Of a stretch of DNA of 64,000 bases, positions 46,563 to 52,289 are shown piece by piece (positions within the stretch are counted from its first letter, which is position 1; each line of letters opens with the position of its first letter). This DNA comes from Ruegeria sp. PrR005. Its GTDB lineage: Bacteria; Pseudomonadota; Alphaproteobacteria; Rhodobacterales; Rhodobacteraceae. Where the stretch lies: contig NZ_JAAGOX010000011.1 in NCBI RefSeq assembly GCF_010500245.1, positions 186,001 through 250,000 of the forward strand. Direction: 5' to 3'. The notes under the pieces were generated by a model. That model was not told the DNA's origin. It made no database searches and saw nothing but the letters and a program-made list of their open reading frames with translations. The position numbers and the translations under genes are program-made.

Positions 46563-47255
46563 ATGAAGATCATCTGGCTGGGACATGGCAGTTTCCGGAT
46601 CGAAAGCGGCGAGGCCGTGCTGCTGATCGACCCCTGGCTCAGCGGCAACCCCGCCCTGCCCGAGGATCAGCACGACGCCGCCGTCGCCGGCGCCACCCAT
46701 ATCCTGCTGACCCATACGCATTTCGACCATGTCATCGACGTGCTGCCACTGGCAAAACGGCTCAGGATCCCGGTCGTGGGCCAGTACGACCTGATGGGAT
46801 TTTGGGGCGAAACCGAAGGGATCGAAACCATCGGGTTCAACAAGGGCGGCACGGTCACCCTGAACGGCGTGCGGGTGTCGATGGTGCCCGCCTCGCACAG
46901 TTCGACCTTCTCCACCCCCGAGGGGCTGCGCACCGGCGGATCGGAAGTGGGCTATATGATCAGCGCCGAGAAGCACACGGTCTACCACTCCGGCGACACC
47001 GCGATTATGGCCGACATGGACTGGATGGGCGAGTATTACAAACCCGATATCGGCATCCTCAGCGCGGGCGGCCATTTCACCATGGACATGAAGGGCGCCG
47101 CCTGGGCGTCCAAGCGCTTCTTCAACTTCAAGACGGTGATCCCGGGTCACTACAAGACCTTCCCGATCCTCGAACAATCGGCCAAGGCGCTGATCGACGG
47201 CCTGCCCGATGTCGACGTGATCGAGCCGGAGGTGATGCAACCCATCGAGGTCTGA
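46563..47255 (+). CDS. MBL-fold metal-dependent hydrolase (UPF0173/YtkL family)
   Basis: A 230-residue metallo-beta-lactamase-fold hydrolase of the UPF0173 type. Metal motifs: LLTHTHFDHVIDVLPLAK, the His in VPASHSST, the Asp in YHSGDTAIMADM and the His in VIPGHYKTFP. Substrate of the family is not established. It starts after GGAGAG and is the first gene of the run that includes the four cyclase genes: its stop is 4 bp before the GTG of the first cyclase, which implies operonic and probably translational coupling. Confidence 0.9.
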   Translation: MKIIWLGHGSFRIESGEAVLLIDPWLSGNPALPEDQHDAAVAGATHILLTHTHFDHVIDVLPLAKRLRIPVVGQYDLMGFWGETEGIETIGFNKGGTVTLNGVRVSMVPASHSSTFSTPEGLRTGGSEVGYMISAEKHTVYHSGDTAIMADMDWMGEYYKPDIGILSAGGHFTMDMKGAAWASKRFFNFKTVIPGHYKTFPILEQSAKALIDGLPDVDVIEPEVMQPIEV

Positions 47256-47259
47256 GGCC

Positions 47260-48231
47260 GTGGCGGCCATCACCCCCTCGCCCGAGCTTGGCGCCATCGT
47301 GCGGCGATGGCTCCGCGCCTATGCGTCAGGGGACAAGGCGGCCGTGACCAACCTCTTCTCGGCCGATCCGGCGCTGGGATATATCGGCTCCTCCCATGGC
47401 GAGATCTGGCGCGGCGACACGCTGCGCCGGGGCATGGCGAGCTATATGGAGGACATCCCCAGCTTTGCCTGGGACCGGGACGAGTTTCGCGGCTTTGAAT
47501 GCGGCGAACTGGGTTGGGTCGAATGGTTCGGCGAGCGGGTTTCGCTGGACACCGGCAAGGAGATCACCTTTCGCTCCACCTTCGTTCTGCATCTTGAACA
47601 GGGCGTCTGGCGGATCGTGCATGTGCACAACTCGAACCCGGTCTCGAACATGGAGGCGCTGGGATACGAATCGCGCGGGTTCGAGGATCTGCTCGAAGCA
47701 GCACTTGCCACCCCGGCCCAGTTCCAGCGCACCGGCATGGCCACGATCATGTTCACCGATATCGCCGACAGTTCGGTGCTGGCCGAAACCCTGGGCGACG
47801 CCCGCTGGTCGGTTGCCGTGCAGGCGCATCTGAAACAGGTCGAAAGCATCGTCACCGAGCATGGCGGCACGCTGATCAAGACCTTGGGCGACGGCACCAT
47901 GTCGGCCTTTCCCTCGGCCTCGGCGGCACTGTCCGCGGCGGTAACATTGCAGAACATCATCACGAACACCACCGAGGAGCCGCATCTGCGCATCCGGATC
48001 GGCCTGCATACCGGCGATCTGGTCGAACAGGACGGCGACCTGTTCGGCACCGTCGTGAACAAGGCCGCGCGCGTTGCCGCGCTGGCGGCGCCGGGCGATA
48101 TCTGCCTGTCGGACGCCACCCGCATAATGGTCGGCGCCGCCCGCCATTTCCGGTTCTCGCAACCTGTCGAGGTGACGCTCAAGGGGCTGGAGGGGCGGCA
48201 TGTGACCTACCGGCTGGAGTGGCGAGAATGA
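47260..48231 (+). CDS. NTF2/SnoaL-like domain + class III adenylate cyclase, copy 1
   Basis: A 323-residue soluble protein, GTG start 4 bp after the MBL gene. Residues about 8-130 form an NTF2/SnoaL-like domain (IVRRWLRAYASGD; RSTFVLHLEQGVWRIVHVHN). Residues about 158-323 form a class III nucleotide cyclase domain. Catalytic residues are all present: metal Asp167 (MFTDIADS) and Asp211 (LGDG), adenine-selecting Lys207 and Asp260, transition-state Asn267 and Arg271 (NKAAR). No membrane helix or signal peptide. Predicted to make cAMP as a dimer, with the NTF2 domain sensing a ligand. The stop overlaps the next ATG as ATGA. Confidence 0.9.
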   Translation: MAAITPSPELGAIVRRWLRAYASGDKAAVTNLFSADPALGYIGSSHGEIWRGDTLRRGMASYMEDIPSFAWDRDEFRGFECGELGWVEWFGERVSLDTGKEITFRSTFVLHLEQGVWRIVHVHNSNPVSNMEALGYESRGFEDLLEAALATPAQFQRTGMATIMFTDIADSSVLAETLGDARWSVAVQAHLKQVESIVTEHGGTLIKTLGDGTMSAFPSASAALSAAVTLQNIITNTTEEPHLRIRIGLHTGDLVEQDGDLFGTVVNKAARVAALAAPGDICLSDATRIMVGAARHFRFSQPVEVTLKGLEGRHVTYRLEWRE

Positions 48232-49202
48232 GCGATCCCTTCACCCCATCGGCAGAACTGTCCGCCATAGCCCGGCGATGGTTGCAGCATTACGCCAGCC
48301 GCCAGTCCAAGATGGTGGCCAATCTCTTCTCGGGATCCGAAGCCTGGACCTATGTCGGCTCGGACGACAACGAGATTTGGACGGGGCAGGACCTGTGCCG
48401 GAGTTTCAACGCCTATACGGACGAACAGGCGCGGTTGATCCTCGAGGATATCAAGGTCACGGGATTCGAGGCGGGAAGTTTCGGCTGGGCCTGCGCGACC
48501 TTCACCGTCTTGTCCGAGAACCGGCAGGTCAGTTCATTTTTCCGCAGCACGTTCGTCTTTACCCTCGAAGATGCTGTCTGGAAGATCGTTCACGTCCATA
48601 ATTCGGTTCCAAAGGCCAGCATGGAATCGATGGGGTACGAGTCGCGCAGCCTCGATGAACTCGCGGCCAGCGCCGATGTCGGGAGTTTTCACATAGGCCG
48701 GACCGGGATCGCGTCGGTGATGTTCACCGATATCGTCGGCAGCACCGCGCTGGCCGCCGCGATGGGGGACGCGGCCTGGAGCCGGAAGATCAAGGCGCAT
48801 CTGGCGCAGATCGCCTCGGACATCCAGAAATTCGGCGGAACCCTGGTAAAATCGCTGGGCGACGGAACCCTGTCTTCCTTCACCTCGGCCCAGGCCGCCA
48901 TGCGCGCGGCGCAGGCGATTCAGCGGGTCAATGCGCAGGACGAGGAGGAGCCGAACCTTTCGATCCGCATCGGCATTCACACCGGCGACGTGGTGCAGTC
49001 GGGCGGCGACTATCTCGGCTCGGTGGTCAACAAGGCGGCGCGCATCGCGGCCATCGCCGAACCGGATGAAATCCGGGTGTCGGACGCCACCCGCATCATG
49101 GTGGGCGCCGCGCCGGGCTTCATCTTTTCGGGTCCGGAGACAACACGCCTGAAAGGGTTGGAGGGGGATCATACCTTCTATCGGCTGGAGTGGCGGGAAT
49201 GA
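48228..49202 (+). CDS. NTF2/SnoaL-like domain + class III adenylate cyclase, copy 2
   Basis: A 324-residue paralogue with the same architecture. The NTF2-like domain occupies about residues 9-130 (SAIARRWLQHYASRQ; FFRSTFVFTLEDAVWKIVHVHNS) and the cyclase about 159-324. Catalytic set: Asp168, Lys208, Asp212, Asp261, Asn268, Arg272. The ATG at 48228 overlaps the stop of copy 1 by four bases; a GTG 9 bp upstream is the only alternative. The NTF2 pocket region (residues about 60-105) differs from copy 1, suggesting a different ligand. The end YRLEWRE is identical to copy 1, which supports recent tandem duplication. Confidence 0.9.
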   Translation: MSDPFTPSAELSAIARRWLQHYASRQSKMVANLFSGSEAWTYVGSDDNEIWTGQDLCRSFNAYTDEQARLILEDIKVTGFEAGSFGWACATFTVLSENRQVSSFFRSTFVFTLEDAVWKIVHVHNSVPKASMESMGYESRSLDELAASADVGSFHIGRTGIASVMFTDIVGSTALAAAMGDAAWSRKIKAHLAQIASDIQKFGGTLVKSLGDGTLSSFTSAQAAMRAAQAIQRVNAQDEEEPNLSIRIGIHTGDVVQSGGDYLGSVVNKAARIAAIAEPDEIRVSDATRIMVGAAPGFIFSGPETTRLKGLEGDHTFYRLEWRE

Positions 49203-50167
49203 TCCGGTCCTCGCCCGAGCTTCTCGCCTTTGCGCGACGCTGGATCGACGCGATCCCCAACAGGCGACCGAACGATCTGCGCAACATGATGACCGAAAGG
49301 GAACACCTGCGTTTCGTCGGAACCGGCGAGAACGAGATCTGGGCCGGTGCGGCAGTACGCGAGGGGATCGGCGCATTCTTTGGTGTCATCCCTGAGATGA
49401 TCAGGCATCAAGAGGTCTTTGCCGAAGCTTACGAACACAACGGCACCGGCTGGGCCTGCATGTGCCACGAGCTGATCTTTGCCAATCAGCCCGACCGGGT
49501 GTTCCGGATCCGCTCGACCCTGATCTTCACGCTCGAGGACGGCGCCTGGAAGATCGTGCATCGCCATGGATCGGTCCCGATCCCGAACATGGATTTCACC
49601 GGCGCCGCACAGACGGCCATCGCCGATCTGGTCGCCGCCGCGAAACAGGGGTTCTCGCTGGATCAGCGCGAGGGCTTTGCCTCGGTCATGTTCACCGACA
49701 TCGTCAATTCGTCGCGCCTTGCATCGGCCATGGGCGACCGGCTGTGGTCGTCCGAGGTGGCCCGCCATTTCAACAGCTTGCGCGAGATCATCGAGGCGCG
49801 GGGCGGGCAGTTCGTCAAATCGCTGGGCGACGGCACCATGTCGAGCTTTCCGTCACCAGAGCAGGGGTTGCGCGCGGCGCAAGCCATATTGCGCGCGACC
49901 GAGGCCTCCGACGGCCCCGCCATCGCGCTGCGGATCGGCATCCATACCGGCGAGGTGATCCAGACCCGCGAAGATTTCTTTGGCAGCGTGGTCAACAAGG
50001 CCGCCCGCATCGCCGCCGCCGCGGCACCGGGCGAAATCGTGATCTCCGGCGCCACCTGCGATTTGACCGGCAAGGTGGCGGACCTGGTCATTCACCCGCC
50101 GGCAGAGATCCCGCTCAAGGGCTTTGACGGCCTGCACCGGGTCCATCGGCTGGAGTGGAAGGCATGA
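49199..50167 (+). CDS. NTF2/SnoaL-like domain + class III adenylate cyclase, copy 3
   Basis: A 322-residue paralogue. NTF2-like part about residues 5-130 (LLAFARRWIDAIPNRRPN; RIRSTLIFTLEDGAWKIVHRHGS), cyclase about 158-322. Catalytic set intact: Asp167, Lys207, Asp211, Asp259, Asn266, Arg270. ATG at 49199 overlaps the stop of copy 2 (ATGA). The C-terminus past residue 283 (GATCDLTGKVADLVIHPPA) is diverged from the SDATRIMVGAA form of copies 1 and 2, so this copy has changed the back of the cyclase domain while keeping the active site. Confidence 0.9.
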   Translation: MIRSSPELLAFARRWIDAIPNRRPNDLRNMMTEREHLRFVGTGENEIWAGAAVREGIGAFFGVIPEMIRHQEVFAEAYEHNGTGWACMCHELIFANQPDRVFRIRSTLIFTLEDGAWKIVHRHGSVPIPNMDFTGAAQTAIADLVAAAKQGFSLDQREGFASVMFTDIVNSSRLASAMGDRLWSSEVARHFNSLREIIEARGGQFVKSLGDGTMSSFPSPEQGLRAAQAILRATEASDGPAIALRIGIHTGEVIQTREDFFGSVVNKAARIAAAAAPGEIVISGATCDLTGKVADLVIHPPAEIPLKGFDGLHRVHRLEWKA

Positions 50168-51123
50168 TCCAGCGCTCGCCCGAGATCGAAGCCATTGTCC
50201 GCCGCTGGACCACCCTGATCCGCAGCCACAAGGTGGCCGACCTGCCGCATTACCTGTCGCAATCCGACGCGCTGGTCTATATCGGCAGCGCCGATGGCGA
50301 GCTCTGGCGTGGCCAACTGGTGCGCGACGGTCTCGCCGATCATCTGGCCGAGGTCCCCGATTTCATCGAGGACGACGTCGAGATCGAAGCCTATGAGCAT
50401 GGCGAAACCGGCTGGGCCACCTATCGGAGTCATTACACCTTTCTCGGCACCGGCAGCCGTGGCACCCATCGGGTGACCTTTGTCTTTGTGCTGGAACGCG
50501 GCAGCTGGAAGATGGTCCAGCACCATATCTCGCAGGCCGACTCGAACCGCGACAAGCTGGGGATCGAGCACACCGCCTTTCAACGCCTGATCGCGGCCGC
50601 CCAGGCCGGATCGCACCGGTTCGGCACCGGTGGGCTTGCCACCATCATGTTCACCGATATCGTCGACAGCTCCGCCTTGGCCGAAGCCATGGGCGATACC
50701 GAATGGGTACGCCTGCTCGACGCCCATTTCCGCCGGGTCGAGGCGATTGTCACGGACCATGGCGGTACGCTGGTCAAATCACTGGGCGATGGCACCATGT
50801 CCTCGTTCCCGTCCGCCACCAACGCGGCCCATGCGGCATCGGCCATCCGGGCAGGGACCAAAACGCAGGACCAGCGCCTTGCCCTGCGCATCGGCCTGCA
50901 CACCGGCGAAGTGGTCGAGAACCGCGGCGATTTCTTTGGCACCGTGGTCAACAAGGCCGCGCGCATCGCCGCCGCAGCCGGTCCCGGCGAGATCCTGGTC
51001 TCGGACGCCCTGCACCAGATGGCCGAGGGCGGCGCGGGATACCGTTTCTCGGACCCGGTTTCCCTACGCCTCAAGGGGTTCGAGGGCGAACACGCGGTTT
51101 ACCGTCTGGAGGCGGACGGATAG
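50164..51123 (+). CDS. NTF2/SnoaL-like domain + class III adenylate cyclase, copy 4
   Basis: A 319-residue paralogue. NTF2-like part about residues 7-130 (IEAIVRRWTTLIRSHK; HRVTFVFVLERGSWKMVQHHIS), cyclase about 156-319. Catalytic set: Asp165, Lys205, Asp209, Asp256, Asn263, Arg267. ATG at 50164 overlaps the stop of copy 3. It is the last of the series, and the array ends with a 159-bp gap and a convergent gene. I see no strong terminator, only a CCACGCC/GGCGTGG stem without a T-run near 51233-51259. Confidence 0.9.
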   Translation: MIQRSPEIEAIVRRWTTLIRSHKVADLPHYLSQSDALVYIGSADGELWRGQLVRDGLADHLAEVPDFIEDDVEIEAYEHGETGWATYRSHYTFLGTGSRGTHRVTFVFVLERGSWKMVQHHISQADSNRDKLGIEHTAFQRLIAAAQAGSHRFGTGGLATIMFTDIVDSSALAEAMGDTEWVRLLDAHFRRVEAIVTDHGGTLVKSLGDGTMSSFPSATNAAHAASAIRAGTKTQDQRLALRIGLHTGEVVENRGDFFGTVVNKAARIAAAAGPGEILVSDALHQMAEGGAGYRFSDPVSLRLKGFEGEHAVYRLEADG

Positions 51124-51282: not shown

Positions 51283-51762
51283 TCAGTCCTGACCGGTCTC
51301 TTTCGGCCCCGCCTTGGGCGTGAACTCACAGCGGTTGGGTTTGATGTCGATCAGCGGCGTGCCGTCCAGGCAATCGAGACCGCGCACCACCAGCGTCGTG
51401 CCCTCCACCCGCTCCAGCCGCACCCGCGACAGGCCGATCGGGTTGGGCCGCTGAGGCGAGCGCAGGGCGAAGGTACCAAAGAGCTTGCCGTCGCTCTTGG
51501 GGTTCTGGATGACCAGATCACGCCGCCCCTTGTCGAGCCAGTAGAGCACGTCGAGCCAGGTATACTCCGCCACCCCGCGCAGCGCGGGCGCCCAGCGCGC
51601 ATCCAGCTCGATCCGGCATTCGGGCCCGTCCTCGCGCCCCTGCCGGGGGCAGTCCTTGCGGTCGGTCCAGGGGGTGCGGATGCGGCCGATGAAATAGACG
51701 CCCGAGTCGGTGGCCTCGGGCAGGTCCACCACCTCTTCGCCCTCGCGAAACCTGAATTCCAT
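51283..51762 (-). CDS. TsaA/TrmO-like SAM-dependent protein
   Basis: A 159-residue protein of the UPF0066/TsaA family. Signature SPQRPNPIGLSRVRLERVEG and the C-terminal LDCLDGTPLIDIKPNRCEF are typical; E. coli TrmO N6-methylates t6A37 in tRNA(Thr) using a SAM-binding beta-barrel. The C-terminal extension differs from TrmO, so the target is uncertain. The start at 51762 follows AAGGGAG. It starts 1 bp after the tadA stop, an RNA-modification gene pair. Confidence 0.88.
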   Translation of the reverse strand: MEFRFREGEEVVDLPEATDSGVYFIGRIRTPWTDRKDCPRQGREDGPECRIELDARWAPALRGVAEYTWLDVLYWLDKGRRDLVIQNPKSDGKLFGTFALRSPQRPNPIGLSRVRLERVEGTTLVVRGLDCLDGTPLIDIKPNRCEFTPKAGPKETGQD

Positions 51763-51763
51763 T

Positions 51764-52228
51764 TCACTCCACTCCCTTGTCCCGCCGTTCAGCAAAAAAC
51801 CCGCGCAACAGTTCCGCCGCCGCCTCGCCGCCGATACCGTCATAGACCTCGGGCACGTGATGCGCCTGGCTGTGTGAGAACACCCGCGCCCCATGCGCCA
51901 CCCCGCCCGATTTCGGATCCGCCGCACCATAATACACCCGCCGGATGCGCGCCGCAGCCAGCGCCGCCGCGCACATGGCGCAAGGCTCCAGCGTCACATA
52001 GAGGTCATGCCCCACCAGCCGTTCCGACCCGGCGGCGGCGCAGGCCGCGCGCAGCGCCACGATCTCGGCATGCGCGGTGGGATCGCAGGTCTCGCGCGTG
52101 CGGTTGCCGGCGGCGGCTACCACGCGCCCGTCCGGGGCCACGATCACCGCGCCCACCGGCACCTCGCCGCGCGCGCCCGCCGCGCGCGCCTCTGCCAGCG
52201 CCTGATCCATATGCGATCTGAAAACCAT
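51764..52228 (-). CDS. tadA: tRNA-specific adenosine deaminase
   Basis: A 154-residue zinc deaminase that makes inosine at position 34 of tRNA(Arg). Zinc and catalytic residues: His and Glu in [10 protein letters not shown] and the two Cys in EPCAMCAAA. The N-terminal [24 protein letters not shown] is TadA-like. Start at 52228 (MVFRSH) is preferred over 52249 by alignment. It is divergent from the rluB-like gene, whose start lies 62 bp away, and translationally adjacent to the TrmO-like gene. Confidence 0.93.
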
Positions 52229-52289
52229 GCCCGACCCTGCCCCGATCATCCATCTTCCGCAAGCGCGGCAAATGGTCTATTGCGCGGGG

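Follow-up and report, generated by a model that had tools for sequence, protein, structure and literature searches.

Four coupled two-domain cyclase genes in Ruegeria

We analysed a 64,000-nucleotide stretch of Ruegeria sp. PrR005 DNA (the window), which carries at 47260-51123 of the forward strand four consecutive genes, each encoding a SnoaL_3 domain (NTF2 fold) followed by a class III cyclase domain (Table 1). In all four copies the N-terminal domain matched SnoaL_3 (PF13474) at 48-86 bits (cut-off 22) and the catalytic domain matched Guanylate_cyc (PF00211) at 53-62 bits (cut-off 21.9). Across the family, all 76 members scanned matched both profiles at E ≤0.01. Identity to copy 1 is 50% for copy 2, 38% for copy 3 and 49% for copy 4. 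An initial annotation had described four translationally coupled genes starting 4 bp downstream of an MBL-fold hydrolase gene, with diverged NTF2 halves and a diverged end of copy 3. These points agreed with our analysis: stop and start codons overlap as ATGA at all three junctions, the 4-bp distance is as described, the NTF2 halves differ more among the copies than the cyclase halves do, and copy 3 has a diverged stretch around 286-305. We found 14 other arrays whose intact genes share this two-domain order, so the four-gene array is not a product of chance.

Table 1 Features of the cyclase array and its flanks (window coordinates)
Feature	Coordinates	Strand	Remarks
UPF0173-type metal-dependent hydrolase (MBL fold), upstream anchor	46563..47255	+	NF001911, 222.5 bits (cut-off 144)
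Copy 1, type A NTF2-cyclase	47260..48231	+	GTG start; Pfam SnoaL_3 + Guanylate_cyc
Junction 1-2	48204..48231	+	LEW codons with embedded GGAG + ATGA overlap
Copy 2, type B NTF2-cyclase	48228..49202	+	Pfam SnoaL_3 + Guanylate_cyc; types K and I here in sister species
Junction 2-3	49176..49202	+	LEW/GGAG/ATGA
Copy 3, type C NTF2-cyclase	49199..50167	+	Pfam SnoaL_3 + Guanylate_cyc
Junction 3-4	50141..50167	+	LEW/GGAG/ATGA
Copy 4, type D NTF2-cyclase, terminal	50164..51123	+	Pfam SnoaL_3 + Guanylate_cyc
TrmO/TsaA-like, downstream flank	51283..51930	-	TIGR00104, 101.4 bits (cut-off 93.25)
tadA-like tRNA adenosine deaminase, downstream anchor	51764..52249	-	NF008113, 123.9 bits (under cut-off 150)

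Class III cyclases use two metal-binding Asp residues together with an Asn and an Arg that act on the transition state, and a Lys and an Asp that select ATP mark adenylate, not guanylate, cyclases. In copy 1 we take these to be D167 and D211 (metal), K207 and D260 (ATP selection), and N267 and R271 (catalysis). All six are present in each window copy, as the initial annotation had stated, and among the matches listed they are kept in all 98 intact members, the window's four included; this holds equally for the K207 and D260 equivalents (98/98). We infer that the four copies produce cAMP, their likeliest output and the one originally suggested. An AlphaFold model of copy 1, computed as a monomer, resembled the catalytic domains of Ma1120 and Rv1900c (TMt 0.78-0.95, 33-37% identity), and its pTM of 0.55 leaves the relative placement of the two domains uncertain. 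The genome contains 45 Guanylate_cyc matches and 11 matches to cNMP-binding domains, the latter being possible receivers of cAMP.

Composition and spread of the family

Our family counts describe the best 80 of 276 matches from a pattern-based contig scan. This sample comprises 98 intact members, including the window's four, on 55 gene stretches that come mostly from the Roseobacter group: 15 arrays of two to five intact genes and 40 single-gene stretches. Broken or partial copies (L074, one L075 copy, one L092 remnant, L111, L112 and L113) were left out of the 98. We set types on a full-length tree, completing types A and F manually with the help of well-supported clades in the first tree; this gave 12 named types, with 13 rows in no named type.

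Matches at E 1e-55 occurred in 15 of 394 genomes of the taxonomic family, own genus included, and at class level two of 385 genomes matched at E 1e-50, namely the genome itself and another from its family. In most of these genomes, five candidates were scored. Single or partial members also appeared in a few metagenome-assembled genomes assigned elsewhere (L087, L100, L101, L105 and L112). Spread by plasmids was discarded: one of 72,556 plasmid records matched at E 1e-20 (Ruegeria conchae, 47.5% identity).

A shared chromosomal slot

Among the matches listed, all 15 arrays sit 0-152 bp downstream of the same UPF0173 gene, and tadA lies beyond the cyclases in 14 of them. The hydrolase gene also precedes 19 of the 40 single-gene stretches, and tadA lies downstream in 32 of the 34 hydrolase-bearing loci, window included. 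The family is not confined to this slot, since 21 of the 40 single-gene stretches, some of them near contig ends, showed no hydrolase in the flanking DNA examined. We also found 17 hydrolase loci free of cyclases. In six of these tadA follows the hydrolase; the other 11, two of them from outside the family, have neither cyclase nor tadA within 1.5 kb. The hydrolase had been proposed to modify the cyclases' ligand. We abandoned this idea because the UPF0173-tadA neighbourhood exists without any cyclase in those six relatives, which makes the hydrolase a flank and not a partner. It probably supplies transcription of the array.

Variable content between core anchors is also what one would expect of anti-phage, Pycsar-like cyclases in a defence-type slot. 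The window copies give weak PycC profile matches (each copy's best model scores 29-37 bits), and one sister's slot (L057) also carries an AAA_15/AAA_21 ATPase gene. In Pycsar, however, an effector gene adjoins PycC; in the window the four cyclases alone occupy the slot behind the hydrolase, the next gene (TrmO-like) lying 163 bp on, and thus no effector is adjacent. The PycC scores also lie under the Guanylate_cyc scores, and the ATP-selecting pair is universal among the intact members. We therefore regard a Pycsar-like role as very improbable.

Probable exchange of single cassettes

Intact copy number among relatives ranges from one to five among the matches listed, and content differs even between sister species, so that the fixed four-member module first envisaged did not hold. 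Written as strings of types, the arrays read ABCD (twice, the window and a Shimia), AKICD (twice, in sister Ruegeria), ACD (R. marina), ACFD, AHGE, AHBGE and AHBJE, plus six others including CD in another Ruegeria; because some species are related, their arrays do not count as independent evidence. Within the same matches, type A heads all nine arrays that contain it and type D ends eight of nine. Free variation in copy number among close strains, with frequent loss of catalytic residues, had been named as a pattern that would refute the initial reading. Half of it is seen: the number does vary among species, but no catalytic residue was lost in the 98 intact copies.

Copy 1 is 98% identical to copy 1 of Ruegeria sp. 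XHP0148, and copies 3 and 4 are each 93% identical to that sister, while the best identity of copy 2 among the other 97 members is 59% (L061_c3), and DNA identity between window and sister drops at both junctions flanking it. The difference from the sister species thus spans the entire copy 2 gene, from one ATGA junction to the next. The relatives as a group suggest that genes are gained, lost and exchanged singly at one chromosomal spot.

Recent tandem duplication was rejected because paralogs within an array share a mean NTF2 identity of 33.8%, far below the 68.7% of copies belonging to one type but lying elsewhere. Arrays as a whole showed no general sign of concerted evolution, as cyclase domains are 53.1% identical within arrays and 52.7% between different types elsewhere. 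In L083, with two copies, the catalytic C-terminal parts are 82% identical and the NTF2 domains 34%, and local exchange between these copies is likely.

A connector linked to gene position

Among the matches listed, internal genes tend to end in a LEW-ATGA connector, and terminal and solitary genes mostly do without it; copy 4, for instance, ends RLEADG-TAG. Internal copies carry the underlying GGAGTGG in 30 of 43 cases, last copies in 1 of 15 and single copies in 2 of 40 (Fisher p 7e-12 if every row counts as independent). Of the 13 internal copies that lack it, 12 still have ATGA or GTGA at their end. For types A and K, internal copies cannot be clearly told apart from the rest in this respect, as too few non-internal copies exist. 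At junction 2-3, the final 15 bases are 80-100% identical to copy tails in sister Ruegeria. The Glu codon is GAG in 32 of 34 junction LEW motifs, compared with 52% within the gene bodies, and the LEW codons possibly form a Shine-Dalgarno sequence (GGAG); the connector would then act in translation. CGG is also favoured at junctions, though no Shine-Dalgarno sequence requires it. Coupled translation would also be expected of heteromers.

NTF2 types and discordant domain histories

Mean NTF2 identity is 68.7% within and 35.3% between types, against 65.4% and 52.7% for the cyclase domains. The 12 types fit the NTF2 tree, which was built on few columns, jointly with 11 changes, the minimum for 12 types, with two each for types A and C, and the cyclase tree with 17; the NTF2 fit is partly built in, since types were defined on the full-length tree. 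In 16 hand-chosen ortholog pairs dN/dS was 0.08-0.26, and NTF2 dN/dS was below cyclase dN/dS in 12 pairs and not in the other four. Judged from these sequences, about 12 constrained types can be told by their NTF2 domains, some types have exchanged cyclase domains, and the two domains' histories are discordant. The NTF2 domain is indeed the diverged half, as first noted, and probably the specificity-setting one.

Could the NTF2 domain instead be an assembly hub like the CaMKII association domain, with arrays mainly setting cyclase dose or oligomer composition? Weak CaMKII_AD matches in 13 of 76 members and the best solved relative, the CaMKII-association-like protein 3h51 (E 3e-5), point this way. 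Yet 12 named NTF2 types, each constrained within itself and present across genera, exceed what assembly would need, and the domain is kept in solitary intact copies; one solitary cyclase half (L111) lacks it. We consider the hub decidedly improbable.

A proposed panel of parallel cAMP sensors

Taken together, the architecture, the invariant catalytic residues, the shared slot with its differing content, the position-linked connector and the type-specific NTF2 constraint favour a modular, coupled panel of soluble class III adenylate cyclases in the UPF0173-tadA slot of Roseobacter-group bacteria (probability roughly 0.6). Most probably these enzymes are parallel cAMP sensors that respond to different inputs, are swapped as cassettes and are probably homodimeric. 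Each gene would be an autonomous unit, whose N-terminal SnoaL_3/NTF2 domain receives the input, which may be a protein partner or a small ligand bound in the NTF2 cone; this domain probably also aids dimerisation. The C-terminal catalytic domain would pair head-to-tail with its identical partner, complete both composite sites and make cAMP. Units would be co-transcribed behind the hydrolase gene, with ribosomes moving from one to the next at the ATGA overlaps, aided by the Shine-Dalgarno sequence in the LEW codons, so that added cassettes would be expressed together. Types would differ in NTF2 specificity and presumably in ligand. By gaining, losing and swapping whole cassettes at junctions, and at times exchanging cyclase halves between types, genomes would alter the set of inputs that feeds one cAMP pool.

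The initial annotation suggested heterodimers or a combinatorial sensor. In obligate heterodimeric cyclases (mammalian C1/C2, soluble guanylate cyclase), each partner has lost the half of the composite site that the other one keeps, and among the matches listed none of the 98 intact copies misses any of the six residues. Moreover, A, B, C and D are each the sole family match at E 1e-50 in some genome, allowing for possible genome gaps. Obligate heterodimers are thus unlikely, and we rejected them as the default. Facultative mixing, in which co-made cyclases pair through their catalytic domains into as many as ten dimers, like and unlike, that would respond to ligands in hybrid ways, draws on the coupling of neighbours and on catalytic domains that are more alike within arrays than the NTF2 domains (53.1 vs 33.8%) and are exchanged between types, so that their interfaces are probably still compatible. 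The sole-copy genomes and complete sites weigh against this as well, and array composition depends on species, which argues against a fixed partner; we judge such mixing unlikely. Returning to the sensor panel, we tentatively, at slightly under even odds, propose a plug-in array that would combine the fixed slot, the standard LEW/GGAG/ATGA connector, one-gene exchange and domain recombination re-wiring inputs, to which heterodimers may add a combinatorial layer.

In some bacteria, class III cyclases number in the dozens. Here, at least 12 constrained input-domain types occur, either alone or grouped as two to five intact genes and often sharing one locus, and with one-cassette differences between species and separable NTF2 types, what a cyclase senses becomes testable. 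If it works as proposed, the connector is also nature's own layout for extending an operon with coupled genes.

Comparison with known systems

Among the papers listed, titles and abstract openings in the open-licence literature yielded no characterised NTF2-cyclase and no description of this locus. Passages of PMC2447327 offered nothing helpful, nor did those of PMC13313319, whose CyaB is treated alongside a class IV enzyme. Sinorhizobium meliloti CyaB and CHASE2 cyclases are likewise alphaproteobacterial and turn different inputs into cAMP, but have CHASE2 or no known input domain, and their abstract mentions no tandem cassette slot (PMC13001267). According to PMC6027212, the receptor adenylate cyclases of Trypanosoma brucei homodimerise, have unknown natural ligands and, like the window copies, carry a class III catalytic domain behind an N-terminal receptor part that varies; unlike them, they are eukaryotic membrane receptors, mostly with Venus-flytrap domains.

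The closest solved catalytic domains are those of Ma1120 (Mycobacterium avium) and Rv1900c/LipJ (M. tuberculosis), which are also the best by sequence for copy 4. The window copies scored 82-99 bits against the LipJ equivalog NF058673 (cut-off 800 bits), over the catalytic domain only. To our knowledge, the T. brucei receptor cyclases have no operon-type coupling. SnoaL_3/CaMKII association-domain-like NTF2 proteins share the N-terminal domain and a W..V/I..H.S motif with the window copies, in which this domain is fused to a cyclase. In LipJ, by its PDB and NCBIfam names, the cyclase is joined to a hydrolase/lipase part, where the window copies have an NTF2 domain instead.

The tandem array and its relatives

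The four tandem genes of the window (copies 1 to 4) each encode an NTF2-fold SnoaL_3 domain (residues ~10-128) and a class III cyclase domain (~156-320). Copy 1 starts 4 bp past a UPF0173-type hydrolase gene, and ATGA stop/start overlaps join the copies at every junction. All four retain six key residues (two metal Asp, the ATP-selecting Lys and Asp, and the catalytic Asn and Arg), tested here for presence, whose roles we assume to be those of class III cyclases. An AlphaFold2 model of copy 1 (76-row alignment, mean pLDDT 87.5, pTM 0.55) was weak at residues 147-155, between the domains, so that the two domains are each modelled with confidence and their mutual arrangement is uncertain. Foldseek placed the catalytic half nearest to Ma1120 and Rv1900c; the NTF2 half had only distant sequence kin among solved proteins, the best being 3h51.

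A pattern-based scan of 84,980 species genomes provided 75 loci (the best of 276 matches), which together with the window yielded 98 intact two-domain genes from 54 sources. These form 55 gene stretches, namely 40 single genes and 15 arrays of two to five intact genes, and all six residues occur in 98/98 members, the window's four included. Broken or cut members (L074, the third copy of L075, the remnant in L092, L111 and L113) were excluded. Family-wide, 15 of 394 genomes matched at E 1e-55; a class-level draw gave 2 of 385, these being the window's own genome and another member of its family. When the 47 genomes of named loci were searched whole (E 1e-50, partial members counted), 27 had one match, three had two, four had three, seven had four, five had five and one had six.

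The main arrays of five same-genus genomes comprise 4, 5, 5, 3 and 2 members, and one of these genomes carries three extra members elsewhere. On the protein tree the array/single label requires 19 changes, and well-supported branches force at least 13 of these, indicating that arrays and single genes often interconverted. The sequence of the L092 remnant is as expected from an internal deletion inside an array. No slot hydrolase was seen near the additional divergent pair of Ruegeria marina (L069).

Coordinates of the array and of features in related loci (L-numbers; window coordinates count within the window)
Feature	Position	Strand	Remarks
Four NTF2-cyclase genes	window:47260-51123	+	Proteins of 319-324 residues
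M24 peptidase resembling ectoine hydrolase DoeA	L059:11883-13067		In hydrolase-tadA slot beside cyclases
Same	L078:8964-10166		Same
Same	L098:8921-10132		Same
Same	L082:6817-7992		Same
Slot of C-D genome	L185:7093-10011		Also agmatine-deiminase-like and OLD-like ATPase genes (from reading the locus only)
AAA_15/AAA_21 ATPase	L057:13137-14960		Downstream of array
Remnant	L092:7913-9379		NTF2 profile positions 1-94, then in frame cyclase positions 270-319
Truncated member, Aestuariivita	L111:7866-8504		Cyclase half without NTF2
Truncated member, Sulfitobacter sediminilitoris	L113:7986-8588		NTF2 half and cut cyclase
Two further NTF2-cyclases, Ruegeria marina	L069:6760-8957		Other types, divergent; same genome has A-C-D array

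A shared slot between the hydrolase and tadA

The same hydrolase lies upstream of all 15 arrays, at -4 to 152 bp, and of 19 of the 40 single stretches (34 loci). On the downstream side, the sequence examined around each locus shows tadA in 32 of the 34. Relatives also provided 17 hydrolase loci that lack a cyclase; in six of these the slot is empty, hydrolase and tadA facing each other no more than 1.5 kb apart. Most probably, these two convergent core genes are anchors between which the cyclases became inserted; in individual cases an empty slot could stem from loss out of a filled one. Other occupants of this slot in relatives are an AAA ATPase, a tryptophan-halogenase family gene, LysR and EamA genes, and the DoeA-like M24 protein, which scores 501-514 bits (below the cut-off of 613) and is encoded after the cyclases in three loci and before them in L082. 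Four of ten scanned slot proteins lacked a Pfam match.

Cassette types and their order

A maximum-likelihood tree of the 98 proteins defined 12 named types and left 13 rows without one. Copies 1 to 4 are A-B-C-D, an order also found in an uncultured Shimia. Ruegeria sp. XHP0148 and R. pomeroyi SZCCDBG043 carry A-K-I-C-D, R. marina A-C-D, Shimia aestuarii A-C-F-D, and three Tropicibacter/Falsiruegeria genomes A-H-G-E, A-H-B-G-E and A-H-B-J-E; a further same-genus genome (L185), typed by DNA similarity alone, has C-D. Type A leads 9/9 arrays holding it, D is last in 8/9 and E in 4/5. The order is not absolute, J being first in L092 and last in L095.

Copies 1, 3 and 4 are 98, 93 and 93% identical to their XHP0148 counterparts, and for copy 2 none of the other 97 members exceeds 59%. 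DNA identity between the two arrays drops at junction 1-2 and is regained at junction 2-3, as though copy 2 had been replaced as a whole gene, from junction to junction; either lineage may be the changed one.

Types differ most in the NTF2 domain

Within arrays, NTF2 identity averaged 33.8% and cyclase-domain identity 53.1% (89 pairs), compared with 68.7 and 65.4% for the same type elsewhere (360 pairs) and 35.3 and 52.7% for different types elsewhere (3124 pairs). NTF2 is thus the part that sets the types apart and stays conserved inside each of them. An NTF2-only tree, built on few columns, jointly explains the 12 types with the minimum of 11 changes (A and C singly take two), a fit that is partly circular because it was the full tree that supplied the types. 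On the cyclase-only tree 17 changes are required, with at least two forced for each of A, B, D and E, and this discordance is not circular. Two cases look like domain exchanges: L063 copy 1 is 88% identical to type A in NTF2 and at most 61% to any other member in the catalytic N-terminal part, and the two L083 copies share 34% in NTF2 and 82% in the catalytic C-terminal part. Across 16 hand-picked ortholog pairs dN/dS values spanned 0.08-0.26, and in 12 of the pairs NTF2 had a lower value than the cyclase domain, a difference to which cyclase-half recombination may add.

A connector linked to array position

Most internal copies end in LEW-x-x-ATGA. GGAGTGG lies within the last 33 nt of 30/43 internal copies, 1/15 last copies and 2/40 single copies, and an ATGA or GTGA end occurs in 40/43, 2/15 and 7/40, respectively. 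One of the two GGAGTGG-bearing singles, L071, stops 176 bp short of the contig end and could belong to the interior of a truncated array. By type, internal and other copies contrast clearly in C (7/9 vs 0/6) and F (2/3 vs 0/4) and more weakly in B (2/5 vs 0/3) and J (1/3 vs 0/2), with too few others to judge in A (8/9 vs 1/2) and K (2/2 vs 1/1).

The Glu codon is GAG in 32/34 junction LEW motifs vs 52% in gene bodies (binomial p 1e-7), and the preceding Arg is CGG in 22/25 vs 29% (p 1e-9), p values that overstate the evidence as rows are related. GAG would be required by a Shine-Dalgarno sequence and CGG would not, which suggests that junctions were also copied among cassettes or share a common ancestry.

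Proposed working and relation to known systems

Composite class III sites need two catalytic domains head to tail. Every intact copy holds both site halves, and whole-genome searches (E 1e-50) found each window type as the sole family member somewhere: A in Shimia gijangensis, B in two Tateyamaria, C in, for example, Sulfitobacter sabulilitoris and Shimia biformata, and D in Shimia abyssi. Homodimers should therefore suffice, and functional heterodimers within the array appear unlikely. Dimerisation and the binding of small molecules in the cone are common among NTF2 domains of this kind, which may thus both pair like copies with each other and act as sensors; a pure assembly role is rather improbable. 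Such sensors would put out cAMP, with CRP-type proteins as its readers; the window's 5.07-Mb genome has 11 cNMP-binding matches and a large cyclase set (45 Guanylate_cyc domain matches). We favour parallel, autonomous cAMP sensors, at a probability of roughly 0.6, and give a defence role hardly any credence.

Searches of the open-licence PMC literature turned up no account of NTF2-cyclases or of the hydrolase-tadA slot. Our strongest claims, drawn from sequence comparison, are the slot, its differing cassette content and the position-linked connector. The domains themselves are already known, and their arrangement here is a variant.
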